Positions 31,505-63,234 of a stretch of DNA of 64,000 nt are shown piece by piece. The stretch spans positions 62,001-126,000 of the IMG/VR virus record IMGVR_UViG_3300028581_001382, one strand, 5' to 3'. The position numbers and the translations under genes were made by a program. The first letter of the stretch is position 1; every line of letters begins with the position of its first letter. The notes beneath the pieces were generated by a model, which did no database searches, was not told where the DNA came from, and saw only the letters and a program-made list of their open reading frames with translations. This DNA comes from a virus.

Positions 31505-32794
31505 TCAATAGCCATGCTTATCCCAGACTGCTTCAAGTTCTGGGTACAATAATCTAGCATTGTAGCCATATAGTGAATCCCATTTACGGCAATGATCTAC
31601 CATGTGTGCCAGCAAGGCATCTGCTTGTTCAGGTTGGGGTGTAGACAAAATGTTCATGCACATCTGCGCCTGCTCTTTCACAATCAATGCATGATTGTTC
31701 AGATCACTTGCATTGTAATCAACAGGCACTTTTATTTCTGCCAACTGATCTAGAAAGTGTTGATATTGATTGACATACTGTTTTTTTACATGATCTGGCA
31801 ACAACACTGCATTTAAAAATGCTGGGCGGGTAACTGACAAACTTTTGACTATGAGATTTTTTTCCAAGCAATGTTGCAATAGTCCAACAAAATAACCAAT
31901 GGTTAACAAACTTATTGCAGGCCGCACTGTTAGTGTAATGTTATGATTGTTACAAAATGCTTGATAATTGTCAATATTTTTTAATACCTGTTGAGTGTCT
32001 GTGCCTTGGCGTTGATAAGCATTGTGCTCGTCTACCGTTTCTATGCTGACTTCAATTCCTACTCTCCTGAACAATTTTAATTTGTTTATCAACTGAGTAT
32101 TAAACACTGTGCCATTGGTTACAAAACTTAAATTTAAATCCAGCCGATCATGCGCAATCATGTAGTCAACAAAATCTTCAAATCGTTTGGTTAGCAAAGT
32201 TTCGCCACCCATGAAATGTATGTTGTTTAGTTTGGGGATTGCAAGAAGTTGTTGCAGAAAGCTGTGCCAAACTTGTTCATCCTGAGTCCAGTCTGTACCA
32301 AGGTAAGGCCTAGAAGATTCAATGCCCCACTTTATCTGCTGACTGGCAATTTTACTTGATGCATTCGGACCGCACATTTTGCAAGCAAGATTGCAAAAGT
32401 TACCAAGGTCTATATGTATGTCAATTGGATGAGTATCAGTAATGCCAGATTGATTGAAATGTTTGAATCCTGGGCTTTGTACCACGCTCTGGACAAAGCT
32501 CTGTTTAAAAATTGCACTCTTTTGATTGCTCTTGATACGTCTGCTGTTACCACCAACTTGCTCTTCTCGATAACAAGTAGAGCATGCACTAACCGGATAA
32601 TCTCCCAACACCTGCTGTCTAAATTGCTTGACCGGCTCACTATTAAACCAGTCTGATATGGTCATAGTGGCAATGTTGTAATTGCCAGAACTGTATAACT
32701 TGTGTGATTCCTGGCAACAAATACCCAAGCTACCATCCCAATAGATGTGTAGCTCATACCACGGGGTATTACAAAAAATATTTTTATTGATCAC
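31505..32794 (-). CDS. Twitch-type radical SAM protein
   Basis: 429 aa. The cluster-binding motif is [15 protein letters not shown] near residue 130 (CxxxCxxC). [20 protein letters not shown] fits the SAM-binding GGE step. N-terminal [20 protein letters not shown], then CC and CSTCYREEQ, carry extra cysteines that may bind auxiliary clusters (SPASM/twitch-like). Substrate unknown. It sits with two glycosyltransferase-like genes and ClpP. Confidence 0.85.
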
Positions 32795-33374
32795 GATTGG
32801 CTAGAATTTTATCAGCTAATCCGTATGCCACAGCTTGATCAGCTGTCATAAAGAAGTCACGTTCCATGTCTGACTCTAGCTCAGCATAAGATTTTCCAGT
32901 ATGCTTGACATAGATATCAGTTAATACTTTTTTCCAACGTAGCAATTCACGTGCCTGGATTTCTACATCAGTGGCTTGCCCTGAGGCTCCTCCCAATGGC
33001 TGATGAATCATATGACGTGCATTAGGTAAGATATACCGTTTTCCTGGTGCGCCAGCTGTTGCCAGCAATGATCCCATACTTGCTCCTTGCCCCATCACAA
33101 TAGTTGCAACATCAGGTTTGATAAACTGCATGGTGTCATAGATGGCCATGCCTGCGGTTACACTTCCGCCTGGTGAATTGATATACAAGCTGATTTCTTT
33201 GTCTGGATTGTCTGCTTCAAGAAATAACAACTGGGCACAGATCAAGCTGGAACTGTGTCCGTTGACTTCGCCGTCCAGCATGACCACACGATCACGTAAC
33301 AGTCGACTGTAGATATCATAACTGCGTTCGCCTTTGGAGGTTTGCTCGAGAACTATGGGTACTAGACTTGACAT
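32784..33374 (-). CDS. clpP: ATP-dependent Clp protease proteolytic subunit
   Basis: 196 aa from the ATG at 33374 (AAGGAATACC before it). The full catalytic triad is present: S99 in GQGASMGS, H124 in HMIHQPLG, D173 in [24 protein letters not shown] is the substrate-binding strand, and the N-terminal [20 protein letters not shown] matches the axial-loop region. Length and motifs match cellular ClpP. It overlaps the upstream glycosyltransferase-like gene by 13 bases and the radical SAM gene by 11. Likely partner of the ClpX at 62032-63234. Confidence 0.97.
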
Positions 33375-34354
33375 GGTATTCCTTGTTTGATTTTTATCCA
33401 CTGACCTTGTACATAATCAGTGAAGTGATGTTTATTGTATAGGATTTTTTCCTGCAAAGCAAGATATTTGGCTTGCCAATATTTAGGAGTTTGCTCACAT
33501 AACACTGCTAAAAAGTTTGCAATGTTATCCGGATTTGTTAAATCCAACTGTGTGATGTCTGTGAAATCTTGAATGTAAGATTCAAATCCACGGTCTTGTA
33601 ACCATTGAGTACCACCATCAGGATCGTATACCAAGAATGGTCTACATCCTACTATGGGTTTGTAAATCTTTTCACTCACAAATCCTGAACGATTTATGTC
33701 GTATATAGTTTCGGTAACAATGTTGACCAAATGCCGTTGCCAATTTTTAATATGTCCCAGACTCGCAATGTCATTGGGCGGCCCGTAGTGTTCTCGTCCT
33801 GGGTTAGGTGCTAACGTATCTGGTTCTCGATCAGTATCAAGTAGAATCTCTGCTTGACCGTTGACTCCTCCCATGCTTACTATTCCATGTTTGACAATAT
33901 CCATTGATTCCAACTGTTTGTACAGTTTGCGCCTGTGCAAATGTGGTTTGCGATTCAAACACATATAGGCTGTGTTGATTTGAGTTGCGTCTAGTAATAT
34001 GTCTTGGGCAGGTGGATTTAAATAATGTTCTACAAACAATGCACAGAAATCCACAGCATGTTTGCCTGGATAGTACCCCACTGTTAAAATCTCACAGTCA
34101 AACTCATTGTACCATGATTGTTGTGGTATAGCTTGATCCAGCATAGCTACCAGTATAATTCTATCTACTGGATTAGATTTCAGCCAAGCCAACACTTGCT
34201 GATGATACTCATTGGTGTACCACACTGAGTTTATAACCACAGTTTGACTCAAGTCTATTGCAATATGTTGTAACAAACTATCAACTATACTTTGTTCAAA
34301 TTGTTTAAGAGGCAAATGATTACCCCACCCATTGTCAAATTTTTGTATAATCAT
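33362..34354 (-). CDS. Glycosyltransferase-like phage protein A
   Basis: 330 aa. [20 protein letters not shown], then [20 protein letters not shown], follows the C-terminal pattern (T-EK-x-x-P, PF-L-V, L-x-x-RGF) of fucosyltransferase-like phage proteins; the same pattern is in the genes at 34335 and 58429. The N-terminal half ([20 protein letters not shown]) is a variable Rossmann-like domain. Probably transfers or recognises sugars; donor unknown. Overlaps gene B by 20 bases. Confidence 0.65.
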
Positions 34355-35401: not shown

Positions 35402-36997
35402 ATGAGATATTTACTAGACCGATTAGACAGATTAGTATTACCACTTGCCGAAGGTGTGGGCCTGGCCAATCGTAAACCTGGCGAAAAATTCAAAAATTCT
35501 GTAGGTGACATTATTACCTTCCAAAACTTAGAATTTTATCCTACCTCGGGACGATTCAACACTCCTGACGAATTGCAAGCCGGTGTAGATGCCATGTTGG
35601 CAGATAAACAAGTTCCAGCTACTCAAATACATTGGGTCAATCAACCAACCAAAAGTGCAGGTGCATTCAGTATTGCTACTTTCGCTGGTGAAGATGGTAC
35701 TCCTTACTACCTAGGCCGATGGGCTGGTGCAACTAGTGCAAATCGTACACAAAACAAATTTGCACACGACGACATTCCTGGTGGTTTTAAATATCAAAGC
35801 CGCGCAGGACAAAAAGAAAACTCTGGACTCAAACCCAGCGAATGGTTGACACAGTTTCAGGACAATACTCCCGACTCTATACTGTCACAAGTTCAACAAC
35901 ATTTTGGTGCTGATAGCGATGAAGCTAATGCACTTGAGATCTTTATCAACTCAGATATTCCATGTACAGTGCCGCGTGGCAATATGAATCCCGATGCTTT
36001 CCGTGATTACTTTGCTGAAGTGCTACAACCTATTGCTCTAGTAACAGGCAAACGAGTAGGCGGCAATGCTGAAGAAGCTGCTGATATATTCTTTGGTGAA
36101 GGTGGTTACAGTGAATGTACCATCAGCTTCAACAGCAATACCATTGGCGGATTATACGACAGCTTGTTGGTCAATCCTGAAGGTAAACAAATCAAACTCA
36201 GTAGCAAGGGCAAAGACGGCGCTTCGGCGTCGGTCACAAACTTGTTGAAATCTGTAAATGAACTATCAGTCACGCCCAAGGGTCAAAAACTATTGACCAC
36301 ACACAAAGATGCCATAGAACTGTTAAACATCATCCAGCAGGACGGTCACTTTGGTGCACCGCTGACTCTGGGTGTAAAATATGGCATCATTACTCCTGAA
36401 GAAGCTGCACAAATTCCACAACTTAAGAAACTTGGACCAACTGACGATATCGTTGGTACAGGCATCCTGAGTCCTCACTTGGAAGAACTGTACAGTCGAC
36501 GCAAAAGCAAAGATCCCAAACGTGTGATTCCCCTGGAGCATATGACCGCCAGTATTGCTTACAATGTGGCCAACTACGTGAACAAAAATACTAACTTTGG
36601 TAAAGCTGCTTCGGAGATCCTAAACAATGCAGCCTTGGTGCAGATGTACACTTATACTTCTCACACTGACCAAACTATCACCATCAGCAAGTCGGAAGCA
36701 AAATACCCTAGCGACACAGTGAATGGTGTATTGTTGGATGCCAGCAAAGTTTATTTTAGCACAGGCGGCAAAGGTAACTTTACTTTTACCATTCTCAAGA
36801 ACGGTGCCACAGAGAAAGATGTTAATCCAATAGATGCTGTGGACAGTCTAGATGATCAACCACCTGCTGCTACCAGTGCAGCTGATCTAGATGCCGAAGC
36901 TGAGAAACCCAGATTGGCCGGTCCTGGAGCAAAAGCAGCCAGAACCAGTCGCGAACCCAGAATGGATCGTGCCACCCTGGGTCGCGAACTTCGTTAA
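35402..36997 (+). CDS. Large uncharacterised protein (531 aa)
   Basis: Begins MRYLLDRLDRLVLPLAEGVG. Notable stretches: TIGGLYDSLLVNPEGKQIKL, SSKGKDGASASVTNLLKSVN, HFGAPLTLGVKYGIITPEEA, and a disordered basic tail from ~480 (PRLAGPGAKAARTSREPRMD). The ESS/SSKG-type stretch loosely recalls phage nuclease or DNA-associated proteins, but I cannot assign a family. Expressed alone on the plus strand among minus genes, with a late-promoter-like site four bases before the ATG. Confidence 0.8.
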   Translation: MRYLLDRLDRLVLPLAEGVGLANRKPGEKFKNSVGDIITFQNLEFYPTSGRFNTPDELQAGVDAMLADKQVPATQIHWVNQPTKSAGAFSIATFAGEDGTPYYLGRWAGATSANRTQNKFAHDDIPGGFKYQSRAGQKENSGLKPSEWLTQFQDNTPDSILSQVQQHFGADSDEANALEIFINSDIPCTVPRGNMNPDAFRDYFAEVLQPIALVTGKRVGGNAEEAADIFFGEGGYSECTISFNSNTIGGLYDSLLVNPEGKQIKLSSKGKDGASASVTNLLKSVNELSVTPKGQKLLTTHKDAIELLNIIQQDGHFGAPLTLGVKYGIITPEEAAQIPQLKKLGPTDDIVGTGILSPHLEELYSRRKSKDPKRVIPLEHMTASIAYNVANYVNKNTNFGKAASEILNNAALVQMYTYTSHTDQTITISKSEAKYPSDTVNGVLLDASKVYFSTGGKGNFTFTILKNGATEKDVNPIDAVDSLDDQPPAATSAADLDAEAEKPRLAGPGAKAARTSREPRMDRATLGRELR

Positions 36998-37572
36998 CGT
37001 TGAAATTCAGATATTGAATCGCAGATGTTTAGTTTCAATGCATCATGGGCATCTAGCCAAACATCGTGTGGCGGCAATAGTTTGGATTTAATCACTGCGT
37101 CAGTTAGCCCTGTACAATCTTTGTAGTGCTGAATCATGCGTTTTTGCGTGAGCTCAAATTCACGTATGGTTGCAAACAATTCGTGTGCTTTGCCGTCACT
37201 GCCCCAACTGAACTGATGACTTAAGATACTGGTGTTAGGTGTGAGTGTGCGTCGTCCCGGTGTTCCTGCTAGAAATATCAACAATCCAGCTGATGCAATC
37301 TGTCCCAATCCTACTGTTTTTATACTCAACTTGGAACTACGCATGACGTCGATCAGTGCAAAGGCTGAGCTCATGTCACCGCCTTCACTGCAAATACTTA
37401 AAACTAGTTCTTTACGTCTCTGGGTTCTTACAAAGTTTTCATGCAGTATCCATTCAATCGCTGGCTTTACAGTATCAGTGTCAATTGGCCCCATCAACAC
37501 AAATATGCCAGCGGCATGCAAGTGTTGTGAGTGCGTCCAAGTGCTGGTATCCGTTGTTGCCGTTGTTGCCAT
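36994..37572 (-). CDS. Second ClpP-like serine protease
   Basis: 192 aa. Triad by alignment to ClpP: S94 in GLGQIASAGLLIF, H119 in SILSHQFSWG, D170 in LPPHDVWLDAH; oxyanion GG at 64-65 in LSICSEGGDMSSAFALID. It lacks the classical N-terminal axial loop and IHQP motif (SHQF instead), so it is a divergent paralogue of the ClpP at 32784. It could form mixed rings, as with cyanobacterial ClpR/ClpP, or act on other substrates. Convergent with the 531-aa gene, sharing the stop palindrome. Confidence 0.9.
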   Translation of the reverse strand: MATTATTDTSTWTHSQHLHAAGIFVLMGPIDTDTVKPAIEWILHENFVRTQRRKELVLSICSEGGDMSSAFALIDVMRSSKLSIKTVGLGQIASAGLLIFLAGTPGRRTLTPNTSILSHQFSWGSDGKAHELFATIREFELTQKRMIQHYKDCTGLTDAVIKSKLLPPHDVWLDAHDALKLNICDSISEFQR

Positions 37573-39748: not shown

Positions 39749-40189
39749 ATGAAAATAAAAATAATAACAATAGCCTTGCTTGTAGTAACAATACAGGTCA
39801 GGGCTGCCGAACTGGTACATCAGTTCAATTCATCTGCATTCAACGGTGTTGGATACAGCAGTCATGTTCTCACAATTGAACAACTAGAATCACAACGTCG
39901 AAAAGCCTTGGCCGATGCTGCCAAATCCGCTGCTGACCAAGCCATTAGAGATGCCAAGAATACCAATCTGGCCAAATTCTTAGTCAATGTTGAAAGTCGT
40001 ATCTATGCCCAACTCTCAAAACAGTTAGCCGATGCTATGTTTTCTGAAGGCGGTGAATCTGGCCAACTGAATTTTCAAGGTACCAACATCTCCTGGCTGA
40101 AAACTGCCACCGAAGTCACACTAACCATTATGGAAAATTCAGGCAATCGCACTGAAATCACTGTACCCATCGGGAGTTTTGCATTTTGA
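39749..40189 (+). CDS. csgF: CsgF-like curli assembly protein
   Basis: 146 aa with signal peptide (MKIKIITIALLVVTIQVRAA). The mature start ELVHQFNSSAFNGVGYSSHV matches the CsgF N-terminus (ELVY-P-N-F-G), which plugs the CsgG pore. The remaining part is a short helix plus a beta end (NRTEITVPIGSFAF). CsgF controls curli subunit export at the outer membrane. Its stop overlaps the next gene's start by TTGA. Confidence 0.82.
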   Translation: MKIKIITIALLVVTIQVRAAELVHQFNSSAFNGVGYSSHVLTIEQLESQRRKALADAAKSAADQAIRDAKNTNLAKFLVNVESRIYAQLSKQLADAMFSEGGESGQLNFQGTNISWLKTATEVTLTIMENSGNRTEITVPIGSFAF

Positions 40190-41001
40190 TCCGAACTGTG
40201 CTATCACTGTTGTTGGCTACTGTACTCACTGGTTGTGCCGCAGTGCTGTGGGACACTGAACGTGAAGAGCCTCGTGTGATCCCCAGGGTAAGGCTGTTGG
40301 ATTCTATACCTGCATTGGATGGCCCTCCTATGCCTATTGCTGTGTATGGATTTTTAGACAAAACTGGTCAAATGAAATCCAATGATCGACTAGCCCTATT
40401 TTCCAAAGCAGTAACCCAAGGTGCCGAAGTGTTTCTGATCAAGGCTCTGCAAGACACAGGCCGTTGGTTTACTGTAGTGGAACGAGTGGGGTTAGACAAT
40501 CTCATCAAAGAACGCCAACTCATACGTAATCAACGCGAAGTGTATGAAGGCAAAGATGCCAAACCCTTGCGGCCCATGCTGGTGGCTGGTATTATGATTG
40601 AAGGTGGCATTGTGGGTTACGATACCAATTTACGTTCAGGTGGCGCCGGAGCCAGAATCATGGGAATTGGCAATTCCGTGCAATATCGAGTGGACGAAGT
40701 GGTTGTGGCCTTGAGGTTTGTGTCGGTGCATACAGGCGAAGTGTTAATCAATACTGCTGTGAGTAAGACCATTTACAGCACTGCTCAAAATGCAGGCATG
40801 CTGAGGTTTGTGGATGTGGGCACACGAGCTGTGGAATTAGAAGCTGGTGCTGCACTCAACGAACCTACAACCTACGCTGTTCGAGTGGCTATTGAACAGG
40901 CTGTGTATGAAACTATCATCACAGGTGAACGTCGAGGACTATGGCGTTTTAAAACTACAATGAGCGTGTCTGGGGAAAACTCGGGCATAGATAAAAAATG
41001 A
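40186..41001 (+). CDS. csgG: CsgG-like outer-membrane secretion channel lipoprotein
   Basis: 271 aa from a TTG at 40186 with GGGAG before it. Lipobox LLLATVLTGCAAV gives a lipidated cysteine at ~17. CsgG-family motifs: PIAVYGFLDKTGQMK, FTVVERVGLDNLIKERQLIR, GGIVGYDTNLRSGGAGARIM, VVALRFVSVHTGEVLINTAV. CsgG forms a nonameric pore for export of curli subunits. CsgG-like genes have been reported in marine T4-like phages, with unknown role. Confidence 0.9.
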   Translation: MIRTVLSLLLATVLTGCAAVLWDTEREEPRVIPRVRLLDSIPALDGPPMPIAVYGFLDKTGQMKSNDRLALFSKAVTQGAEVFLIKALQDTGRWFTVVERVGLDNLIKERQLIRNQREVYEGKDAKPLRPMLVAGIMIEGGIVGYDTNLRSGGAGARIMGIGNSVQYRVDEVVVALRFVSVHTGEVLINTAVSKTIYSTAQNAGMLRFVDVGTRAVELEAGAALNEPTTYAVRVAIEQAVYETIITGERRGLWRFKTTMSVSGENSGIDKK

Positions 41002-41597
41002 TAACAAAAACTCTCAAAAGTGTAATATTATTGGCAGTTATGCTGTGGTCCACAGCATGGGCCAATGAACTGTATATGGAACAAAGTGATGACTCGTCCA
41101 CCATAACCATCACACAGGACGGTGCCAGCAATGAAATTGGCACACAACTGTCTCCGGTGTTTATTGGTGGAGGCTCAAATACTGTAAATATTGAACAAAT
41201 TGGTGCCGGCAACCAACTACAGTTTACAGTAAATGGTGCCACCACTGCTATGACCATTGAACAACACGGTAGCAACAATATCGGTACAGTGACTTGCGGT
41301 ACCACTGCCAATGCCAGTTGCAGTGGCAGTACCATTTGGCAATTTATCACTGGTGATGACAACAACATCAGTCAGCTTCTAGGTGCCGGCGGAAATCATA
41401 CCAGCAAGATCACTGTGACTGGGGACACCAACACAGTGAGTCATACCAGTACCAACACAGGCGCTGTGAGTATGCAATACCTAGTAACTGGGAACAGTAA
41501 TTCAATTTCAGTGACCACTGCAGGTACCACAGCCAAGACTCTCAATGCAACTACTACTGGCAATAGCAATACTGTTACTATCGTTCAGACCAACTGA
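40998..41597 (+). CDS. Curlin-like amyloid subunit (CsgA/B type)
   Basis: 199 aa. Signal peptide VILLAVMLWSTAWANE, then curlin-type repeats: ITITQDGASNEIG, VNIEQIGAGNQLQ, MTIEQHGSNNIG, WQFITGDDNNISQL, VTGNSNSISVTTAG, NSNTVTIVQTN. The S/N-x5-Q-x-G-x-x-N register is visible in the N-terminal half and degenerates later. Such repeats form beta-helical amyloid. Its C-terminus is overlapped by the next gene in another frame. It would be the natural cargo of the CsgG/CsgF pair. Confidence 0.85.
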   Translation: MITKTLKSVILLAVMLWSTAWANELYMEQSDDSSTITITQDGASNEIGTQLSPVFIGGGSNTVNIEQIGAGNQLQFTVNGATTAMTIEQHGSNNIGTVTCGTTANASCSGSTIWQFITGDDNNISQLLGAGGNHTSKITVTGDTNTVSHTSTNTGAVSMQYLVTGNSNSISVTTAGTTAKTLNATTTGNSNTVTIVQTN

Positions 41598-44107: not shown

Positions 44108-46156
44108 TTATTTTTCGGTCGCTATCCATTCACCATTCCAATTGGACGGTAAGGCTTGCCGCTTCATAAAGTCGCAACGTTCCGTCCATATCTTATAATA
44201 CTTGTCCATCTGTCCGCCAAAGTTTCCCTTTAGATCTGCACACATTACAGCAGCTTCGTCAAACTTTTTCTGTCGATACAAGGCATGCATCGCTTCGTGT
44301 TGTGCTTTGTCTTTAGAGTAATCTGTGCCTTTGGTGCGTAGAGCTGTATAGATCAAGTCTGCTACAGTTTTACCCTTTGGTTGTAAGTTATCTAGCAACA
44401 AATACAAGAAGTCATCTTTGGTTCTATTATATGTTTCGGCACCAATAATACATAGCACACCATATGCTTTGCAACGTGCTTCCAAACGTGCAGCGGTGCT
44501 CACCATGTCACCCAAGATGTCATAGCTGTGTCTTTCTGTTGATCCCATTTCACCAATAAAGCCAATACCACTGTTACAACCCCAACCCATTGCAGCAGGT
44601 GGTAATCCCTGTGCTTCCATAACTTTGGTATACTCGTCTACCTTGTCTAGCATTTCAAGTCCTACCTTAACAATTGTTCGTGCGTGGTCAGGATCTTCAA
44701 TAGGAGCACCGTGTATGTGCATTGATGCATCGCCCACATACTTGATGACCATACCTTGGTTGTCTAGCATTGGCTGACTAATGGCATCCATATAACCGTT
44801 CATGTACTTGCCAAGTCCGGCAACGTCATCGCCATAGTATTCACCAATAGGAGTAAATCCACGCAAGTCGCTGAACATAACTGATACGTCTTTACGCACA
44901 CCTCGCTTGATTAAGTCTGGATCTTTTTGTAGTAACTCTACTACTTCTTTGGAGCAGTAACCGGCAAACTGTTTCTTTATGGCTTGCTTTTGCAAGAACT
45001 CGCTTAGAAACTTGATACCATAGGCATGCAGAGCGACCAAAGTTGTGCCAACTGCAAAGGCAGTAGCATCGAATAAGAATAAAAAATTGCTGTAAGCAAG
45101 AATGCTGCCAGCAATACCGCCGCCCACAATAACCAAAACTGTCGCCATACCTGCATAAGTATACCTCGTCAAAAACAACAATGTTAGGCCAGCCAGAGCC
45201 ATGGCCAATATCTCAGCACCGTCGGCCCAATCAGGCCGCACAATGCGACGTTCTGAAGTCAGGGTATCTAGTACAGCGGCCTGCAGATAATGCGGGAAGA
45301 CCTCACCTCTTGCAGTGGCCACTGGGTTGTTGAGTCCCCGGGCGGATAAGCCCACAATGACGATTCCACCTTGGAAATCTTTTGGCAAACTAGCCAAGGA
45401 GTGTTCTTGCGGTCGGGATGACCAATCCACCCAGATTCTACCAAGACTGTCTGTTGGGATTTTTCCAAACTGTGGAATTCTAACTGCTTCAATAATTCCT
45501 GAGTTGACTCGAACTTGGAAAGAGGGGTCGCCTGCTGCAACTCGTAGGGTTTCAAGACTGATAGAGGGGTAGATCTGTTGTCCAACACTGACGACCATGG
45601 GGATTCTGCGAACGACACCGTCCAGTTCGGGCACAGTGTTAACAATACCAATACCAGCTGCTGTTTCATTGATCTTCCTTTCGTTGGGTTGAATTGCCCG
45701 GTATGGTATGCCCGGTTCACCTGAACCAATCACGCTTACACCAGGTCTAAATGGCACAGTGTTGGTGCGCACTGGGTCATTGGTTGCGGTGTGTGGCAAC
45801 ACCACAGGATATTTTTGTAAGAGTTGCGCCAATTGCTGATCTTGACCTGCACGATCTGCGTCGGGCATGAACACATTAAACACCACAAGACCTGCATTAC
45901 GCTGATAGAGATCTTGAATTATTTGGGCGTATTGGCCCCGGGGAAAAGGAAACTGTCCACGCTGCTCAATGGCCTGATCATCAATGTTCACTAGATGTAC
46001 GCCAGAGCTGGCCGTGGTTGGTGTGCTGGTTATCACTGTGTCAAAGTAACGCAGCCTAACACTTTCTACTAAGGCTGGATCTGCGATTCTAATGCCAACC
46101 ATTATGGCTAGAGTTAGCAGCGCAGTCCAAGGGGATAACAGTAATTTTTTTACCAC
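44108..46156 (-). CDS. CHASE2-domain adenylate cyclase (class III)
   Basis: About 682 aa from the GTG at 46156 (a TTG lies one codon upstream). One membrane segment at 11-24, a CHASE2 sensor domain (~50-305), three more segments (~315-385), then the cyclase domain (~425-560). Catalytic residues, numbered from the TTG: metal Asps D431 (FSDLRGF) and D477 (KYVGDASM), adenine-specifying K473 and D547, transition-state R558 (AARLE). The conserved Asn of VNxAARLE is Ser554. It may make cAMP from host ATP after sensing a periplasmic signal. Confidence 0.88.
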   Translation of the reverse strand: MVKKLLLSPWTALLTLAIMVGIRIADPALVESVRLRYFDTVITSTPTTASSGVHLVNIDDQAIEQRGQFPFPRGQYAQIIQDLYQRNAGLVVFNVFMPDADRAGQDQQLAQLLQKYPVVLPHTATNDPVRTNTVPFRPGVSVIGSGEPGIPYRAIQPNERKINETAAGIGIVNTVPELDGVVRRIPMVVSVGQQIYPSISLETLRVAAGDPSFQVRVNSGIIEAVRIPQFGKIPTDSLGRIWVDWSSRPQEHSLASLPKDFQGGIVIVGLSARGLNNPVATARGEVFPHYLQAAVLDTLTSERRIVRPDWADGAEILAMALAGLTLLFLTRYTYAGMATVLVIVGGGIAGSILAYSNFLFLFDATAFAVGTTLVALHAYGIKFLSEFLQKQAIKKQFAGYCSKEVVELLQKDPDLIKRGVRKDVSVMFSDLRGFTPIGEYYGDDVAGLGKYMNGYMDAISQPMLDNQGMVIKYVGDASMHIHGAPIEDPDHARTIVKVGLEMLDKVDEYTKVMEAQGLPPAAMGWGCNSGIGFIGEMGSTERHSYDILGDMVSTAARLEARCKAYGVLCIIGAETYNRTKDDFLYLLLDNLQPKGKTVADLIYTALRTKGTDYSKDKAQHEAMHALYRQKKFDEAAVMCADLKGNFGGQMDKYYKIWTERCDFMKRQALPSNWNGEWIATEK

Positions 46157-46160
46157 CAAA

Positions 46161-51124: not shown

Positions 51125-51132
51125 TATTTATA
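51125..51132 (-). promoter_or_regulatory. Late promoter TATAAATA five bases before a start codon
   Basis: Perfect T4 late consensus in the 3' end of the glycosyltransferase gene, five bases before the ATG at 51119. Confidence 0.6.
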
Positions 51133-52129
51133 CAGGATTTTTGTCAACCAAATTGTCGCGGAATATTTCCCAAGCTCGTTGCCATGACCATTTTTGGCTA
51201 CCTTCTAATACTCGTTCTCTATTCAATACAATACAGCGATGAACCGCAGTGGCTAAATCTTCTTCCAAGTATCCAGTCACTCCCTGCTCAACCACATCCT
51301 CGGGACCTTGCACAGGATATGCTGCAACCGGTGTGCCACAGGCCATTGCTTCAATCATTACAATACCAAATGTTTCCCACTGACTAGGGAATACAAACAC
51401 ATCGGCCTGTCTATAGTAGTCGGCCAATTCTTTACCAGTTTTATATCCTACAAATTCAACATCAGGGTACTGGTGTCGATATGTTTCCAACATAGGTCCA
51501 TCACCCACCATGACTTTACAATAACCTGGGTAGTCTAGCTTAAAGAAATCTTCTAAGTTTTTTTCTTTAGAAACTCTACTAACACACAACAGAGTGCCAG
51601 TGTTAGTATAAGAATTGCTAGGATAGAAAATATCTCTATCAACACCTCTTGTCCAAGATATAATATCTCCATCAAATCCATGATCACGCAACTCCTTTAC
51701 CATTGAGTCTGTAGTGGTCAGCACTTTACCACTGTGTTTGTGAAACCAACGCACTAAAGGCCAAGTAAGGACCTCAGGTATTCCAAACAGCTTCTTAATT
51801 CCTTCTGGAAATTTAGTATGATAAGCAGTATTGTAGCAATAACCGTGTTTGTCAAGATATTGTCTAGCACACAGACCCACAGGACCTTCGGTGGCGATGT
51901 GGATATGATCCGGATTGATCTCCTCAAGTATCTGGCCCATCTTCCAGGGAAAGGCAATCTTGACTTCGTTGTAGCCAGGGCAATCAACATAGCGGAACCG
52001 CCCGGGATCAAGATATACAACACGATAGTTGTCGCGAATCGCACACGTCTCAATATTTTTGTAGGTCGTGGCCACACCATTGATCTGCTCCGGTAAATTA
52101 TCTGTGACTATCAGTATTGTTTTTGACAT
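51128..52129 (-). CDS. GT4 glycosyltransferase, Agt-like (lipid glycosylation candidate)
   Basis: 333 aa, two Rossmann domains. Acceptor domain starts LIVTDNLPEQINGVATTYKN; donor domain has LLCVSRVSKEKNLEDFFKLD, VGDGPMLETYRHQYPDVEFV and FGIVMIEAMACGTPVAAYPV with the E-x7-E region. It resembles SQD2/MgtA-type enzymes that glycosylate diacylglycerol. It directly follows a PlcP-like gene, the arrangement known for plcP-agt lipid remodelling in proteobacteria. The donor sugar is not predictable. Confidence 0.82.
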   Translation of the reverse strand: MSKTILIVTDNLPEQINGVATTYKNIETCAIRDNYRVVYLDPGRFRYVDCPGYNEVKIAFPWKMGQILEEINPDHIHIATEGPVGLCARQYLDKHGYCYNTAYHTKFPEGIKKLFGIPEVLTWPLVRWFHKHSGKVLTTTDSMVKELRDHGFDGDIISWTRGVDRDIFYPSNSYTNTGTLLCVSRVSKEKNLEDFFKLDYPGYCKVMVGDGPMLETYRHQYPDVEFVGYKTGKELADYYRQADVFVFPSQWETFGIVMIEAMACGTPVAAYPVQGPEDVVEQGVTGYLEEDLATAVHRCIVLNRERVLEGSQKWSWQRAWEIFRDNLVDKNPV

Positions 52130-52150
52130 TTGCCTTCTACCTTAAAACTT

Positions 52151-53038
52151 TCAAACTTTAACTGCCACTTCATTGTGGCCAGTGCTTGTTCGCATATGTG
52201 TTGACTGGGAAATTGTAGTTCTATTCTCCCTGGAGTGTCTTTGGGATTGTTTATGTGAACTGCTATCAATATCATCAACCACATCATCTCGCTCCTTGGA
52301 CCAAGTTACTATTTCCCATTTACCATCATGATGTTCTACCAATGCGGTACAACTTTCTACCCAGTCACCGTCGTTCATATAAATGATACCGTCTATGTCT
52401 TTGATCTCTGCGTGGTGTATGTGACCACAGATCACGCCATCAAACCCACGCTTTTTACAATAGCCTGCTAGATTCTTTTCAAATTGAAATATAAAATCCA
52501 CAGCTTTCTTTACTCTATGCTTTAGATACTTACTTAAACTCCAATAACCAAATCCCATCTTATGTCGGCCCCAGTTAAACTTACTGTTGAGATTGAGTAC
52601 AAAATCGTATAATTTGTCTCCCAAGAATCCCAGCCAAGGAGCTAGTCGTGTAATGCCATCGAACAAATCACCGTGAATCACTAAGTAGTGACGACCGTCT
52701 ACACCTATATGTTCAAATTGATTGTGTATTTCTACTAGACCAAAACTAAACCCATATGGTAACATAGGTCTAAGAAACTCATCATGGTTACCAGCTATGT
52801 AGATAACTCTAGTACCACGTTTAGCATGACCAAGTACTCTACGAACTACATTAGTATGACTTTGTTTCCAACGCCATTTGTTTTGCTGTATTCTCCAAGC
52901 ATCAATGATATCACCCACGAGATACAATGTATCGCAGGTGTTGTGCTTGAGGAAATTATTCAATGCTTCGGCTTTGCAATCTTTGGTGCCAAGATGTACA
53001 TCACTGATTGCTATGGTTCTATAAGTTTTGGTTGTCAT
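52151..53038 (-). CDS. plcP: PlcP-like metallophosphoesterase (LpxH-related)
   Basis: 295 aa from the ATG at 53038 (MTTKTYRTIAISDVHLGTKD). Metal motifs: SDVHLG (12-17), GDIIDAW (42-48), AGNHDEF (82-88), IHGDLFD (121-127), CGHIHHAEI (204-212). DGDWVESCTALVEHHDGKWE closely follows what I recall of PlcP, the phospholipase C that removes phosphate head groups in phosphate-starved proteobacteria; databases often name these UDP-2,3-diacylglucosamine hydrolases. A hydrophilic Ser/His tail (~255-295) is extra. Confidence 0.85.
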   Translation of the reverse strand: MTTKTYRTIAISDVHLGTKDCKAEALNNFLKHNTCDTLYLVGDIIDAWRIQQNKWRWKQSHTNVVRRVLGHAKRGTRVIYIAGNHDEFLRPMLPYGFSFGLVEIHNQFEHIGVDGRHYLVIHGDLFDGITRLAPWLGFLGDKLYDFVLNLNSKFNWGRHKMGFGYWSLSKYLKHRVKKAVDFIFQFEKNLAGYCKKRGFDGVICGHIHHAEIKDIDGIIYMNDGDWVESCTALVEHHDGKWEIVTWSKERDDVVDDIDSSSHKQSQRHSRENRTTISQSTHMRTSTGHNEVAVKV

Positions 53039-53082
53039 AGTTGTTGTATTTGTTATTATAATGCAAACCCACAAATTAAAAA

Positions 53083-53106
53083 CTAAAAAAGGACCAGTTG
53101 GTCCTT
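53083..53106 (-). terminator. Rho-independent terminator after pstS
   Basis: Minus-strand stem AAGGACCA / TGGTCCTT with a 2-base loop (perfect 8 bp) followed by TTTTAGTT. It separates pstS from plcP. Confidence 0.8.
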
Positions 53107-53150
53107 AGTACTGGTTACGAGTTCCAGCCACACTCTATCGTTGTGTGCGG

Positions 53151-54155
53151 TTATTTAATCTGTGTCCAAACTCGCTGACGAATCTGATCTTGCAACACTG
53201 TGGGCAAGTGTACATAATCCAATTCTTCACTCATGTTCTTGCCGTTCTTGAATGCCCAATCAAAGAATTTCAACGCTTCATCACTGGCGGCTTTGTTAGT
53301 AGGATTTTTGTACATGATAATAAAACTTGCTGAACTCACTGGCCAGGCGTTGAGATTCTTTTGATCCACAATGCTGAGTCCCATACCCGGAACTGAGAAC
53401 CAATCAGCACCGTCTGCCGCAGCGGCAAATGTTACGTCATCTGGACTTACATATCGTCCTGCGTTGTTCTGGAGTTGTAGAAATGTCATGTTGTTCTTTT
53501 TAACATACGCATATTCCACATAACCAATTGATCCTTTGATACGGTTTACATTAGCAGCAACTCCTTCGTTGCCTTTACCACCCACTGAACTGGCAGCAGG
53601 CCATTTAACAGCAGCACCTCGGCCCACACGCTGTAGCCACTCGGGACTTACAGTAGCAAGATAGTCTGTCCAATTAAAAGTTGTACCCGAACCATCAGCA
53701 CGGTGTACCACGGTGATTTCTGTATTAGGCAAGGTTTTACCTGGGTTCAATGCTGTTAATTTTGGGTCATTCCACTTAGTAATGTTACCCATGAACACTT
53801 CCGCCATAACTGGTCCAGTGATCTTTAGTTCTCCGGGCTTGATACCATCTAAGTTAACAATAGGCACAGTACCGCCAATGATGGCAGGGAATTGTATCTG
53901 TCTCTGTTTGTCTAGGTCTTCACCCTTAACTGGAGCATCGGTGGCACCAAAGTCTACAGTTTTGGCATTGATTTGTCTAATGCCACCTGAACTGCCAATT
54001 GATTGATAGTTCATGCCTTTACCAGTGGCCTTTTTATATGCTTCGGCCCATTTAGCATAGATTGGATATGGAAATGTAGCGCCAGCGCCGGTAATTTCCT
54101 GTGCTGTTGCAGAAAATGCAACAATTGCAAGTAGCATGGTAATGAGTTTTTTCAT
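53151..54155 (-). CDS. pstS: Phosphate-binding protein PstS
   Basis: 334 aa from the ATG at 54155 (AAAGGAAATTTTG before it). Signal peptide MKKLITMLLAIVAFSATAQE. Phosphate-binding motifs: GAGATFPYPIYAKWAEAYKK, SIGSSGGIRQINAKTVDFGA, RADGSGTTFNWTDYLA. Periplasmic capture of phosphate for host PstCAB. Known as an auxiliary metabolic gene in cyanophages. A Pho-box-like site is upstream and a terminator downstream. Confidence 0.95.
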   Translation of the reverse strand: MKKLITMLLAIVAFSATAQEITGAGATFPYPIYAKWAEAYKKATGKGMNYQSIGSSGGIRQINAKTVDFGATDAPVKGEDLDKQRQIQFPAIIGGTVPIVNLDGIKPGELKITGPVMAEVFMGNITKWNDPKLTALNPGKTLPNTEITVVHRADGSGTTFNWTDYLATVSPEWLQRVGRGAAVKWPAASSVGGKGNEGVAANVNRIKGSIGYVEYAYVKKNNMTFLQLQNNAGRYVSPDDVTFAAAADGADWFSVPGMGLSIVDQKNLNAWPVSSASFIIMYKNPTNKAASDEALKFFDWAFKNGKNMSEELDYVHLPTVLQDQIRQRVWTQIK

Positions 54156-54197
54156 CAAAATTTCCTTTAGTTGATACATTTATTTAAGCATACAAGT

Positions 54198-54215
54198 ATT
54201 ACAATTATGTTACAG
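54198..54215 (-). promoter_or_regulatory. Pho-box-like operator before pstS
   Basis: Minus strand CTGTAACATAATTGTAAT against the Pho-box consensus CTGTCAT-A/T4-CTGTCAT: 14 of 18 positions agree by my count. It overlaps the uvsE stop, ~43 bases before the pstS ATG; TTAAAT downstream could be a -10. Confidence 0.55.
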
Positions 54216-55232
54216 ACTTAGCCAATGTTGATGTAATTGGTTAGTGGCCAAGTTCTTACCTTTGGCTTCAACTTGCATGTCCCACTCTTTACTAAAGGTC
54301 AACGCCCATTCAGTCACAGCATGATTCCACAAGAAGTCACTATGAGCTCGCAGCTTCTGCTTGCGGTATCCAGAATTAAGAAGTTGTCCCAGGTCGGGAC
54401 GAACATTGGGATCGTGATCCACCAAAACGTCTTCACGACTAACACTGTAGTGCAAAGCAGGACGAGTACCACGCCAAGACTCCAACACGCGACGAGCACG
54501 AGGGTCGTTAGGAGTGATGTATTCGCCGGTGTTGATCCAGTGGTGGTGGATATCCAGCGTAAGAGCGCAATGCTCAGCCACAAGTAAAGTAACGTCGATC
54601 CCATTTGTCATCTCATCATTTTCAATAGCAATTAGATTCCTAGCTTCTGGAGTAAGTCGACCCAGGGTGCGAAGGAACTTTGTAGGGCCGCCTTTGCCCG
54701 ACAAATGTACATTGATCTTAAATCCATGATCATGCCATGAACTGCCATACCCCATCCAACGAGCCATGTCCGCATGGTACTCGAATTCCAAAATACTACG
54801 TTCCACAATCTCGTCTGCTTCACTGGCCAACACACAAAATTGGCCTGGGTGAAAACTGAGCCGCACACCAAGTCGACGTGCAGCTTCGCCCACAGGGGCA
54901 AAGATTTTTTTGCAATGCGCTTGGATGTCGGCCTGTTGCCACCAAGAAATCCAGCTGGGTTCAGTATAGCCTTGCAGCATTTCGCTGCCCAGCCGTACCA
55001 TGCGACGTTCAGGAGCCATTGCACCCACACGTTCCACCATCATCAATGCTGCACGAGCATTGTGATTCATAATATCCCACTGGCGTTGTTCGGCCTGGTC
55101 CTTGTGTTCACGTAACCAACGCATTGTGGTACTTCGTCCGTTGATGTCACGATCAATGGCGTTGACTTTCATTCCGCCAGTTTCATCTGGAGTGTTAAGC
55201 CATTTGCAGCAAAAACCAAATCGAGGATGCAT
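54210..55232 (-). CDS. uvsE: UV damage endonuclease (UvdE/UvsE)
   Basis: 340 aa TIM-barrel endonuclease: start MHPRFGFCCKWLNTPDETGG, VRLGSEMLQGYTEPSWISWW, LSFHPGQFCVLASEADEIVE, LIAIENDEMTNGIDVTLLVA, LTLDIHHHWINTGEYITPND. The metal-binding His and Glu positions are kept. It nicks 5' to UV photoproducts. Known in several aquatic phages. Confidence 0.92.
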   Translation of the reverse strand: MHPRFGFCCKWLNTPDETGGMKVNAIDRDINGRSTTMRWLREHKDQAEQRQWDIMNHNARAALMMVERVGAMAPERRMVRLGSEMLQGYTEPSWISWWQQADIQAHCKKIFAPVGEAARRLGVRLSFHPGQFCVLASEADEIVERSILEFEYHADMARWMGYGSSWHDHGFKINVHLSGKGGPTKFLRTLGRLTPEARNLIAIENDEMTNGIDVTLLVAEHCALTLDIHHHWINTGEYITPNDPRARRVLESWRGTRPALHYSVSREDVLVDHDPNVRPDLGQLLNSGYRKQKLRAHSDFLWNHAVTEWALTFSKEWDMQVEAKGKNLATNQLHQHWLSL

Positions 55233-55234
55233 AA

Positions 55235-55780
55235 TTACTCACCGTTGTTGTTACCCAGTAATTGTAACACATTTGGCAATAGATCTCTAGTGATATTGGC
55301 AAGTTTTTGGATGGGTTCGGCAAGATCGGTATGATGATCTACTATTACCCATTGTTTACCGCTGCTGCGTATGGCTTCAGCTAATAGTCCAACATAGTTG
55401 GTTCTACGTTCTGTTGATTTGGTTTCTAGATCAAATCCAATCATAAGAATCACATCAGCTACACTTGCTACCAAATGAGCAGCAATTATGTCGTCAACCG
55501 AATCTACAGAAAAATCAAACTCTCCACCAAATGCCCGCACACCTTTGGGTGCCTTTAACTGTTCATAAACTGTTTGTTGGATGTAAAGATTGCATATCTT
55601 TGCATATCCTTGTGCCACTAACTTGGCAGCTTGCTCGGTGTCCCAGCACACCACATTGTCGGTATTATATCCTCGTTGGGTTCGCCAGCTGCCCCAGATT
55701 GGTGCAAGATTTTTTATGGCCTGAACCGGTGTCGTGGGCGGCAACATGGTATTTTCGGCAAATAACCAGGCTATGTTCAT
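55235..55780 (-). CDS. Conserved phage protein
   Basis: 181 aa from the ATG at 55780 (overlapping the upstream stop as ATGA). MNIAWLFAENTMLPPTTPVQ, IKNLAPIWGSWRTQRGYNTD, NVVCWDTEQAAKLVAQGY, DVILMIGFDLETKS. Rossmann-like alternation and a conserved W-GSW-R motif. I recall it from marine phages in the same neighbourhood. Function unknown. Confidence 0.65.
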   Translation of the reverse strand: MNIAWLFAENTMLPPTTPVQAIKNLAPIWGSWRTQRGYNTDNVVCWDTEQAAKLVAQGYAKICNLYIQQTVYEQLKAPKGVRAFGGEFDFSVDSVDDIIAAHLVASVADVILMIGFDLETKSTERRTNYVGLLAEAIRSSGKQWVIVDHHTDLAEPIQKLANITRDLLPNVLQLLGNNNGE

Positions 55781-56694
55781 GACTCTCTGTGCAGGTCTAA
55801 GGTGACACAATGAAACCCGCCGCCTAATGTTCGACTATGGCGAAGTTGCATAGGTACAACTGTGAATTGATTCTTTTCCAGGAAATCAATTAACATGGGT
55901 TGATTCTGATCTACAACTACTGTGTATGGATTTACTACCAGCATATTCAATGCTATCCATTTAGATGCATATGGATATTGGAAGAACCCTTGTTCTTCCA
56001 CGTGATTGCAATAGATGACTTCCCAGTCTTTTAACACTCGTGGTAAGTTTCCTGGAGTGACTCTACTGCCGTTGACTAATACCAATCCTTCACGTAACGG
56101 AACTATGGTTGAATCAATATGTACTCCTGCGTAGAAATTAACCAATTCAATATCTACTGTTGGAAATTGATTACATAACCAATCATATGCAGCGCGATTG
56201 CCTGATGCAGATTCTAAGAAAATCCATTTGTCATTTAGTCGTGCTATGTTGGCAGCATCCAGAGTCATACCCACATGTCTGGGCATGAATAGATAATTAT
56301 CAGCAGCATCTGCTATATCACGATAGCATTCAATTTCCATATCTCTGCAAGGATACATCATGGCTGGATTCACAATGGTATTACCGTATACCAACAATCG
56401 ATCTCTAGGACAATAGTTATACATGCCATCGTGTTCTTGAAAATCAAGATCATCCGGGCGAAACACTTCTACATTCAATGATCGTAAAACCCCAGCTAAT
56501 GCATCAAGGTCTTCATTGGCTTCTTTAATGATCCAGTCTGGCACTGGTCCCGACGGTAATGGAGTTTCTTTCCATAACGTTCTTTCACTTTCGCTGCGGA
56601 ACACTGGATCTTTTGTTGGCCAATTGGCATGGTCAGCACGCCCTACTACTACGGATCGCAATGTATCCCATTCATTGAAACTGTGTATCTTCAT
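55777..56694 (-). CDS. Glycine amidinotransferase-like enzyme
   Basis: 305 aa, pentein fold. MKIHSFNEWDTLRSVVVGRA is the typical start, FQEHDGMYNYCPRDRLLVYG carries the Asp/Tyr region, NFYAGVHIDSTIVPLREGLV the catalytic His (GVHID), and the end SRTLGGGFHCVTLDL holds the nucleophile C296, as in the GGGFHC of vertebrate GATM. It should move amidino groups from arginine to an amine; the acceptor (glycine or an aminosugar) is unknown. Confidence 0.85.
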   Translation of the reverse strand: MKIHSFNEWDTLRSVVVGRADHANWPTKDPVFRSESERTLWKETPLPSGPVPDWIIKEANEDLDALAGVLRSLNVEVFRPDDLDFQEHDGMYNYCPRDRLLVYGNTIVNPAMMYPCRDMEIECYRDIADAADNYLFMPRHVGMTLDAANIARLNDKWIFLESASGNRAAYDWLCNQFPTVDIELVNFYAGVHIDSTIVPLREGLVLVNGSRVTPGNLPRVLKDWEVIYCNHVEEQGFFQYPYASKWIALNMLVVNPYTVVVDQNQPMLIDFLEKNQFTVVPMQLRHSRTLGGGFHCVTLDLHRES

Positions 56695-57212
56695 ACGGTT
56701 CCGGTAAGTTGTAATGTATATCTATCAGTTTGTCCCATGTTAGCTGCCAAGTGTAAAAAATCATCACGCCAGCTTACCCAATCACCGGCACGCCAGCCAG
56801 TAAACGGTTGTCCATTCATTTCCAAGTAATGCCCACTGGCCCAGTCCTCCATGAATACAATGGTGCGTACCACATTGTGGGTGGTTTCTAATCCATGTAT
56901 CAGCTTGAATCTATCATATGTATCTCTATGTGCAGGCAATACACTTCCTGGAGGCATACGATAAAAACTCCAACCAAATCGTTCAAATGGAAATATTGTT
57001 TGGAACGGTGTTATCCAGTCTGGTTCGACTTGTTTCATGTCATACATGTCACCGGTGAATCTAGTTTGTGTATAACCTAATCTGCGCCACTCACGCAATG
57101 CGTAAGTGTCATTGAACTGCTGGTTGATGTAGTTGAGATCGCGATGTCGTAGATCCCACCAAGGATCTACATGCCCTTGCGCCCAAGCATTATTTGTTGC
57201 GAGTGTTTCCAT
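56691..57212 (-). CDS. Aspartyl-hydroxylase/2OG-oxygenase-like protein
   Basis: 173 aa. PPGSVLPAHRDTYDRFKLIH gives an HxD metal pair, and GWRAGDWVSWRDDFLHLAAN the distal histidine, then RYTLQLTGTV carries the co-substrate arginine. The layout is that of a short cupin-type 2-oxoglutarate oxygenase. Substrate unknown. It overlaps the dehydrogenase gene by 23 bases. Confidence 0.75.
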   Translation of the reverse strand: METLATNNAWAQGHVDPWWDLRHRDLNYINQQFNDTYALREWRRLGYTQTRFTGDMYDMKQVEPDWITPFQTIFPFERFGWSFYRMPPGSVLPAHRDTYDRFKLIHGLETTHNVVRTIVFMEDWASGHYLEMNGQPFTGWRAGDWVSWRDDFLHLAANMGQTDRYTLQLTGTV

Positions 57213-60895: not shown

Positions 60896-61204
60896 TTATT
60901 TAGAATCAGGCTCTAGCTTGATTTGCAAAGGAAAATCTTGCTCACGTGCGCTTTCGTTTACTTCATACTTTTTTTGCTCAGCAATTTCAAACGGCAATAC
61001 TGCTACAATAGCTTGACCATTTTCATGTATGCTCACTGTCAACTGTGTAGCTGTTTCAATGGTATAGTCAAAAAACTCTACTAGACTTTCTACTACAAAT
61101 TCCATAGTAGTAGTGTTATCATTGATATAAATCACACGATAAAGAGGCGGCTCTTTGATGGCTTTTTTAGTTCGGATAATGGTTGCTGCTTCTGCGTTTG
61201 ACAT
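60896..61204 (-). CDS. clpS: ClpS, N-degron adaptor for Clp protease
   Basis: 102 aa. PPLYRVIYINDNTTTMEFVV then ESLVEFFDYTIETATQL follows E. coli ClpS nearly throughout. Pocket residues that bind the N-terminal amino acid are kept: N28, D29, M34 and H60 (SIHENGQAI). ClpS normally delivers N-degron substrates to ClpA. Its phage copy lies 0.8 kb from clpX with hsp20 between. An unusual hairpin precedes it. Confidence 0.95.
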   Translation of the reverse strand: MSNAEAATIIRTKKAIKEPPLYRVIYINDNTTTMEFVVESLVEFFDYTIETATQLTVSIHENGQAIVAVLPFEIAEQKKYEVNESAREQDFPLQIKLEPDSK

Positions 61205-61259: not shown

Positions 61260-61706
61260 TTACACAGTGTATGTGATTGCAATGCTCTTCGGCTTGGCTG
61301 ATTCAGGAACTTTACGCTCCAAGTATACAGTCAAGATACCATCTTTGATGGCTGCACCATTGACTTCCACGTGTTCGGCAAGCGGAAATGTTTGCTTGAA
61401 CTCACGGCTAGAAATACCACGATGTAGATATTCATGCTCAACGCTGTCATTGCGCTTTTTATTACCAGTTACGGTAAGCAATCGCTTGTCCAAACTGATA
61501 TCAATTTCGCCTTCAGAAAATCCTGCCACTGCGACTTCAATTGTGACTGTGTCGTCACCAGTTTTAATCACATTGTGTGGAGGATAGTTGGTTGAGCTTT
61601 GAGTTTGTGTTACACGCATCAGATCGTCAAACAGATTGTCAAAACCAATTCCAAATTTGTTGAATGCGGGGATATCGAAACTACGAAGGTGTAGAGTTTT
61701 TGTCAT
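61260..61706 (-). CDS. Small heat-shock protein (Hsp20/IbpA type)
   Basis: 148 aa. Alpha-crystallin domain ~35-125: NYPPHNVIKTGDDTVTIEVA, VAGFSEGEIDISLDKRLLTV, and the classical AxxxNGVLxI region as VEVNGAAIKDGILTVYLERK; N-terminal GFDNLFDDLMRVTQTQSSTN as in IbpA. An ATP-independent holdase; Hsp20 genes are common in marine T4-like phages and are expressed with late proteins. Late promoter at 61774-61781. AAAGGAGAAACAAC before the ATG. Confidence 0.95.
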   Translation of the reverse strand: MTKTLHLRSFDIPAFNKFGIGFDNLFDDLMRVTQTQSSTNYPPHNVIKTGDDTVTIEVAVAGFSEGEIDISLDKRLLTVTGNKKRNDSVEHEYLHRGISSREFKQTFPLAEHVEVNGAAIKDGILTVYLERKVPESAKPKSIAITYTV

Positions 61707-62031: not shown

Positions 62032-63234
62032 TTAGTCTGTACCAGTTAGTGCAGTTGGTTTGTTCACTTGTGCAGGATCAATTTCCACACACTTGATACC
62101 TGTGTTGGCATAGCGACGTAGATTAAACATGTGCGGAATCAATGTACGTTCCAGTTCAGAATGCAGTCCACGAGCACCAGTTTTGTTGACCAGAGTGTGT
62201 TCAGCAATAAGATCCAAAGCAGGTTCTGTGAATGTTAACTCCACTCCATCTTCTTTGAACAACCAATGATACTGTTCAATGTAGTTGTTCTTGACTTCAG
62301 TGAGAATACGGATCAAGTCTGCTTTGCTGAGTTCTTTGAGACTAACCCAATTAGGAAAACGTCCAACAAACTCTGGAATCATTCCAAACTTTACTAGATC
62401 ATCAGGAGTGGTCATGGCTAGATCTGCGTCTATGTCTGTCTTTACTTGGGCATTGAATCCAATACTTGTGCCTTGCACACGGTTCTTTACAATGCCGTCT
62501 AGTCCTACAAATGCTCCACCTGCAATAAACAAGATATTCTTGGTGTCAATTTCAATCATTTCCCCACCAGGATGTTTCCGCCCGCCCGCAGCACTCACGC
62601 GACAGATAGTACCTTCGACCATCTTTAACAAGGCCTGCTGTACACCTTCGCCGGACACATCTCGTGTGATGCTGGTGCTTTCACCTTTGCGCGAAATTTT
62701 ATCAATTTCATCCACAAACACAATACCTTTCTGTGTTTTGGCTATATCATTTCCTGATGCTGCGTACAGTCTGCTGATCAAACTCTCTACATCGTCACCA
62801 ACATAACCTGCTTCTGTAATACTTGTGGCATCTGCAATAGCAAACGGTACATCAAGATATCGTGCTACACTTTTGGCCAGCAGGGTCTTGCCCGAGCCAG
62901 TGGGACCTAACATCAAGATGTTGGCTTTGTCTAGTTCTGGCTGTGTTGTGGTTTTATTGATGCGTTTGTAATGATTTACAATGGCCACCGCCAACATGAT
63001 TTTGGCAGCATTTTGTCCAATCACGTATTGGTCTAGATAATTCTTTAACGCAACAGGATCCATCTTGTCAGATGGTTGTGCCGGTGCCGCGGGCGCTTCT
63101 TCATCAGTGAGTAGATCTTGACAAAAATCCACACACTCGTTGCAGATACCTGCGTATTCCCCAACAATTAGTTTTTTCACTGAATCTTTGTTTTTGCCGC
63201 AAAAGCTGCAAGATGTATGTGTTTCTTTGGTCAT
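62032..63234 (-). CDS. clpX: ClpX AAA+ unfoldase
   Basis: 400 aa. N-terminal zinc domain C9, C12, C31, C34; Walker A GPTGSGKT at 110-117; pore loop GYVG at 143-146; Walker B VFVDEID at 172-178; RKH at 219-221; the ClpP-docking IGF at 258-260; arginine finger R292; sensor 2 R355 (GARGL). All features of a working ClpXP unfoldase are present. A Pro/Ala linker ([11 protein letters not shown]) joins the zinc domain. Phage ClpX with phage ClpP is rare. Confidence 0.97.

Follow-up and report, generated by a model that had tools for sequence, protein, structure and literature searches.

A phage plcP-glycosyltransferase pair as a probable host-PhoB-controlled module for membrane lipid remodelling

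What would a bacteriophage do with genes for altering the membrane lipids of its host? The question is raised by a three-gene locus in a stretch of 64,000 nucleotides of viral DNA, referred to here as the window, which corresponds to bases 62001-126000 of the 153,873-base IMG/VR record IMGVR_UViG_3300028581_001382. The initial annotation described a pstS gene with a Pho-box-like site, a PlcP-type phosphoesterase and a GT4 glycosyltransferase (GT), and took them together for a phosphate-starvation lipid-remodelling set; three intact minus-strand open reading frames (ORFs) do lie side by side at this place in that order. We consider it probable that plcP and the adjoining GT gene form a phage-borne module for membrane lipid remodelling under the control of host PhoB. 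What stands of the earlier reading is the PlcP-GT module with its Pho boxes, and what does not is the supply of UDP-glucuronate, the textbook Agt and the constant presence of pstS. The locus comprises:

54181-54214, minus strand: predicted Pho-box promoter of pstS, TGTAAC-N4-TTGTAAT, followed after an 11-nt gap by a TAAATA -10-like element.
53151-54155, minus strand (ORF extendable to 54179): pstS, periplasmic phosphate-binding protein, recognized by a signal-peptide-like N terminus and by NCBIfam and PDB matches.
53106-53089, minus strand: intrinsic terminator after pstS, AAGGACCAACTGGTCCTT, then a T-rich tail.
52151-53038, minus strand: plcP, PlcP-type metallophosphoesterase, a predicted phospholipid head-group hydrolase from its tree position, identity to cellular proteins and metal-site residues.
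51128-52129, minus strand: GT4 of the Agt/GTcp radiation, a predicted diacylglycerol glycosyltransferase from synteny, tree, residues and a GT-B model.

The gap between pstS and plcP is 112 bp, with the terminator inside it, and that between plcP and the GT4 gene is 21 bp; the terminator position is conserved in four other rows of our locus alignment (L003, L048, L099 and L008). The assignment of PstS rests on NCBIfam models PRK10918 (E 1.2e-116) and TIGR00975 (7e-110), both above cut-off, and on PDB PstS matches to 1.5e-104. The phosphoesterase matches Pfam Metallophos (6.5e-10) and the GT4 matches Glycos_transf_1 (7e-26).

The arrangement of plcP directly before a GT gene is fixed in a large group of viruses. 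At least 592 IMG/VR contigs encode PlcP and at least 406 encode a relative of the GT4. We examined the best 80 loci from each of the PlcP, GT4 and GT2 scans of IMG/VR and made the viral plcP loci non-redundant at 95% (n=127). Directly after plcP stands a GT4 or GT2 gene in 121/127 loci (GT4 in 68, GT2 in 53), another gene in 4 and the end of the contig in 2; when only representatives found by the plcP query alone are counted, a GT follows in 51/55. In three of the four loci with another gene (L027, L093 and L124), a RimK-like ATP-grasp gene is placed between plcP and GT4. The GT2 partner is a protein of 238-241 aa (Pfam PF00535) that is unrelated to GT4, and the two kinds of partner are interleaved in the PlcP tree, where well-supported branches force at least 3 switches. 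Because two unrelated GT families alternate in one slot, there is good evidence, from gene arrangement, that sugar transfer to the PlcP product is what matters. The acceptor of the GT2 would likewise be diacylglycerol.

Conserved Pho-box promoters accompany these genes. The pattern TGTAAY-N4-YTGTAAY-N8..12-TTAAATA has a single match in the window, an exact one at 54181-54214(-), and 0 matches in 100 shuffles. A loose search for Pho boxes alone remains at chance level in the window; the site by pstS, already picked out in the initial annotation, is convincing because the -10-like element lies at the right spacing and because the site is conserved in 26/28 viral pstS. Upstream of those 26 non-redundant genes we find TGT(A/C)A-N6-TGT(A/C)A, with TAAATA 10-14 nt further on in 24. 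The viral box consists of two 11-bp direct repeats, which we take to be the arrangement of the E. coli Pho box. We predict that the site in the window is a PhoB-controlled phage promoter, to which host PhoB would bind.

Viral plcP genes have the same element upstream: the box is exact in 63/122 regions, compared with 0/610 shuffled, and has at most one mismatch in 98/122, compared with 34/610. Several of the box-less plcP genes stand close behind pstS. No box was found upstream of the GT genes of the viral loci (GT4 0/64, GT2 0/36), which is what one would expect of genes in second place in an operon. In cells, too, the regions before plcP exceed chance, with 29/77 carrying a box with at most one mismatch and 6/385 shuffled regions doing so. 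When IMG/VR was scanned for the promoter pattern, with no protein query, at least 63 non-redundant sites were listed, most of them before phosphate genes: 33 before pstS, 11 before plcP, 2 before other PstS-like proteins and 1 before a Na/Pi cotransporter.

Other genes of these viruses stand behind Pho boxes as well. One is a conserved Ala/Val-rich ORF of ~214-232 aa (MRFEDLAARL...), present in loci L018, L069, L070, L077, L083 and L315, mostly after the GT gene; it is preceded in several loci by its own Pho box and -10 element and has no Pfam match. Another, in L391, L395 and L439, is a membrane protein of ~320 aa in which ND/PVST-like motifs recur and which a Pho box immediately precedes; it too lacks a Pfam match, and is possibly a phosphate permease. 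An ORF resembling an outer-membrane protein also lies behind a Pho box in L138, a relative, near 3029.

The GT4 falls inside the Agt radiation, as had been proposed, but it is not a textbook Agt. All viral GT4 sequences form one clade (100/100) within the plcP-linked cellular radiation, beside the locus L255 (93/88). The best reference is GTcp of Ca. Pelagibacter HTCC7211, in which His104, Thr162, Arg163 and Trp320 are needed for diacylglycerol and the D256E change abolishes >90% of activity (PMC8231724). The window enzyme shares with GTcp the GT4 family, the GT-B fold and a length of ~334 aa; it has the GRVAxEKN-like motif, as SRVSKEKN, and the equivalents of the four residues (His104, Thr160, Arg161 and Trp316 in window numbering, the diacylglycerol-contact and catalytic-His positions) are conserved in 79/79 viral GT4. 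Its AlphaFold model, with a pLDDT (predicted local distance difference test) of 93, has the GT-B fold, and its nearest structures are BshA, tetrahydrobiopterin glucosyltransferase and MshA. Unlike in GTcp, the motif FPSxTDTFG reads FPSxWETFG, with Asp256 changed to Glu and its Thr neighbour to Trp, and donor specificity may differ. The Asp is kept in 59/60 cellular members, and Glu with the Trp neighbour (WETFG) is found in 76/79 viral ones. Since a basal viral branch (L059, L068 and L080) retains the Asp, the change from TDT to WET looks derived within the viruses. Thus, the window GT4 is best described as an Agt-related, predicted diacylglycerol-binding enzyme whose sugar may differ from that of Agt.

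Several observations weigh against the proposed module. At the position of the catalytic Asp of GTcp-type enzymes the window GT4 has Glu-252 and, given the loss of activity in GTcp D256E, its donor or acceptor may differ from theirs. For the GT2, NCBIfam and PDB searches gave nothing specific and a fold search gave only a generic GT-A, from which no acceptor can be assigned; nor did 369 gammaproteobacterial genomes contain a close relative at E 1e-20. In the window itself the Pho box of plcP has decayed (3 mismatches in the best match) and the terminator separates plcP from pstS, so that Pho control would need read-through from pstS. The pstS gene, counted as part of the set in the initial annotation, occurs in 5/15 plcP records tested and is missing from most large ones, including all four of 347-525 kb; this rules it out as an obligatory part and leaves the plcP-GT pairing as the fixed element. 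The best matches of PstS, 47-56% identical, are spread over alpha-, beta- and gammaproteobacterial genomes and do not resolve the host.

A UDP-sugar dehydrogenase gene (57190 in the window) had also been suggested as a source of UDP-glucuronate for a glucuronosyl lipid. We rejected it as a supplier of the sugar donor: it is not coupled to the GT4, since only 3/12 records tested have it, with plcP paired with GT2 in two of the three, and a GT4 record of 367 kb lacks it. The presence of pstS and of the dehydrogenase thus varies from record to record, and the plcP-GT pair is the unit.

Might the membrane be changed for a purpose other than phosphorus? The sugar lipid itself could be the point, serving superinfection exclusion, a phage-specific compartment or the evasion of membrane-active defence. 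The derived active site of the viral GT4 would fit such a role, as would the frequent absence of pstS and the repeated replacement between GT2 and GT4, which suggests selection on the head group. However, expression is coupled to phosphate starvation through the Pho boxes, and pstS is the commonest target among the matches listed in the query-independent scan; we therefore regard this explanation as unlikely. A related possibility, which we hold tentatively and at somewhat less than even chances, is that the jumbo phages have made the plcP-agt pathway virus-specific, the WET active site and the exchange for GT2 giving rise to glycolipids foreign to the host.

A far less probable alternative is that the phosphoesterase is an LpxH-type enzyme of lipid A synthesis (UDP-2,3-diacylglucosamine diphosphatase) and that the GT modifies lipopolysaccharide, so that the pair would remodel the outer surface, for instance to keep out superinfecting phages. 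Phages do carry lipopolysaccharide-modifying GTs. LpxH belongs to the same calcineurin-like superfamily and is the usual automatic annotation of viral PlcP, which pipelines name UDP-2,3-diacylglucosamine hydrolase. The gene name lpxH also turns up in virome studies based on KEGG, as in a viral table from Lake Baikal with an lpxH/K03269 entry that may be misnamed plcP. Against the LpxH model TIGR01854, however, the window protein reaches 31 bits, far under the curated cut-off of 190, where cellular PlcPs score 39-54 bits and the true LpxH of the same genomes 237-334. In a maximum-likelihood tree (LG+C20) a 100/100 branch parts four LpxH from all viral and cellular PlcP, and the viral proteins, including that of the window, are nested among PlcP. 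On these two results we reject an LpxH identity; clustering with LpxH, which the initial annotation had named as an outcome that would refute its reading, was not observed. Its closest cellular relatives are PlcPs of Hyphomonadaceae, Chromobacteriaceae, Pseudomonas, Acetobacteraceae and others (50-61% identical), and the calcineurin-like metal site (D13, H15, D43, N84, H122, H206 and H208) is invariant across viral PlcP. The phosphoesterase is of the PlcP type, and hydrolysis of phospholipid head groups is its predicted activity. There is, moreover, no obvious reason for placing lipid A synthesis under Pho-box control, and the cellular orthologue of the pair is plcP-agt.

The viral origin of the locus is evident from the rest of the record, which encodes a T4-type DNA polymerase, a clamp loader, both subunits of class Ia ribonucleotide reductase and an exonuclease, so that the label "phage" is right. 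The polymerases closest to its own are those of Sinorhizobium phage Phosso and Agrobacterium phage Atu_ph07, each >460 kb. Its 153,873 bases contain no Gp23 capsid gene, which marks the record as incomplete; in plcP-bearing relatives 249-525 kb in length, Gp23 is present along with T4-type polymerase. In all, Gp23 was found on 7 plcP-bearing IMG/VR records and in Pelagibacter phage Mosig, and T4-type polymerase on several. The record is thus a fragment of a T4-like jumbo phage, and the carriers of the plcP-GT set are large lake-type bacteriophages, with hosts that are probably heterotrophic. Although IMG/VR contigs are uncultured and this record is a 154 kb fragment, it is hardly credible that the genes were recently carried over from a host as passengers or result from mis-binned metagenome contigs, without phage function, a notion refuted for the family by the one deep GT4 clade (100/100) across dozens of contigs, the capsid or T4-type polymerase genes on the same contigs, and the pstS and plcP of the cultured phage Mosig.

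A Methylotenera metagenome-assembled genome (contig locus L177) has a viral-type plcP amid phage-like genes, which we read as phage sequence or a prophage within the bin. It was not used as host evidence because the protein, although nested within viral PlcP, sits on a long branch, and because the neighbouring genes are phage-like.

The reference system for the pair is the plcP-agt operon of phosphate-starved Pseudomonadota (SAR11 HTCC7211 PB7211_983/960, Erythrobacter), an arrangement that Sebastian et al. linked to the synthesis of GADG and MGDG (PMC4796936). As in the viruses, a homologous PlcP (50-61%) lies directly upstream of a homologous GT4 under Pho-box control; in about 60/80 named cellular loci plcP is directly followed by a gene homologous to that of the window GT4 (38-44% identity). 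In contrast to the cellular operon, the viral set resides in T4-like jumbo phages, its GT4 forms a clade of its own in which the catalytic motif carries Glu/Trp, the unrelated GT2 is the partner in about half of the pairs, and pstS has joined in some.

Among phages, the nearest precedent for regulation is the control of cyanophage phosphate-stress genes by host PhoBR, for pstS in P-SSM2 and for S-PM2d genes (PMC10976474). The likeness lies in a phage pstS controlled by host PhoB in phosphate starvation, which is here predicted from the promoter; the cyanophage genes include no lipid enzymes, and the cyanobacterial Pho box is PyTTAAPyPyT/A rather than TGT(A/C)A-N6-TGT(A/C)A. The nearest precedent for content is the cultured Pelagibacter phage Mosig EXVC030M (MT647606), a T4-type SAR11 phage with pstS and plcP side by side and divergently placed. 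Its PlcP is 48% identical and annotated "UDP-2,3-diacylglucosamine hydrolase". Unlike the jumbo phages, it has no glycosyltransferase beside plcP, and no Pho box of the same form was seen in its intergenic region; an Asp_Arg_Hydrox gene also lies beside the two. The paper announcing Mosig mentions neither pstS nor plcP. We found no earlier report of a phage plcP in the literature searched, a search that most subscription journals lay beyond and that does not establish priority.

The window and its record also hold genes of other kinds. On the plus strand at 40186-41597 a CsgG-domain protein (PF03783, 5e-50) is followed by a curlin-repeat protein (PF07012), which are curli-export-like genes in a jumbo phage. 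The minus strand encodes at 44108-46159 a 683 aa protein that by eye resembles a CHASE2 sensor joined to an adenylate/guanylate cyclase, and at 54210-57212 a UvdE-like UV endonuclease, then two ORFs without Pfam match and an Asp/Arg hydroxylase-like gene. A proteostasis set, host-type by eye, consists of two ClpP, ClpS, Hsp20 and ClpX (32784-33401, 36994-37572, 60896-61204, 61260-61706 and 62032-63234), with ClpB/ClpA-like and DnaJ genes, also named by eye, elsewhere in the record (L241). A phage-encoded Gram-negative porin (PF13609) lies at L243:9084-9992 (record bases 133084-133992).

How, then, might the module act? We suggest that when the infected cell is starved of phosphate, host PhoB would bind the Pho box and turn on pstS, for more phosphate uptake, together with plcP-GT in most relatives. 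PlcP would cut the phosphorylated head group off host glycerophospholipids, and the co-transcribed GT (a GT4 in the window, a GT2 in roughly half of its relatives) would cap the resulting diacylglycerol with a sugar. In this way the virocell would gain access to lipid phosphorus without loss of the bilayer, and glycolipid substitution would keep the membrane intact until lysis. PlcP would yield phosphorylated head groups rather than free phosphate, so host enzymes would have to complete the release; the phosphate freed may then serve viral DNA. By our own arithmetic a 350-500 kb genome contains 0.7-1 million phosphorus atoms. The phospholipids of a small bacterium number a few million, which is of the same order as the phosphorus in its chromosome.

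The auxiliary phosphorus genes known from phages, pstS and phoA, serve uptake, and to our knowledge none is known for mining host membrane phospholipids. Hundreds of IMG/VR contigs contain the cassette, which an LpxH annotation can easily mask. The promoter motif would mark PhoB-controlled genes in such phages. The two interchangeable GT families are candidates for new glycolipid activities, and if the pathway has indeed become virus-specific, the infected membrane would both yield phosphorus and gain a phage-specified lipid head group.

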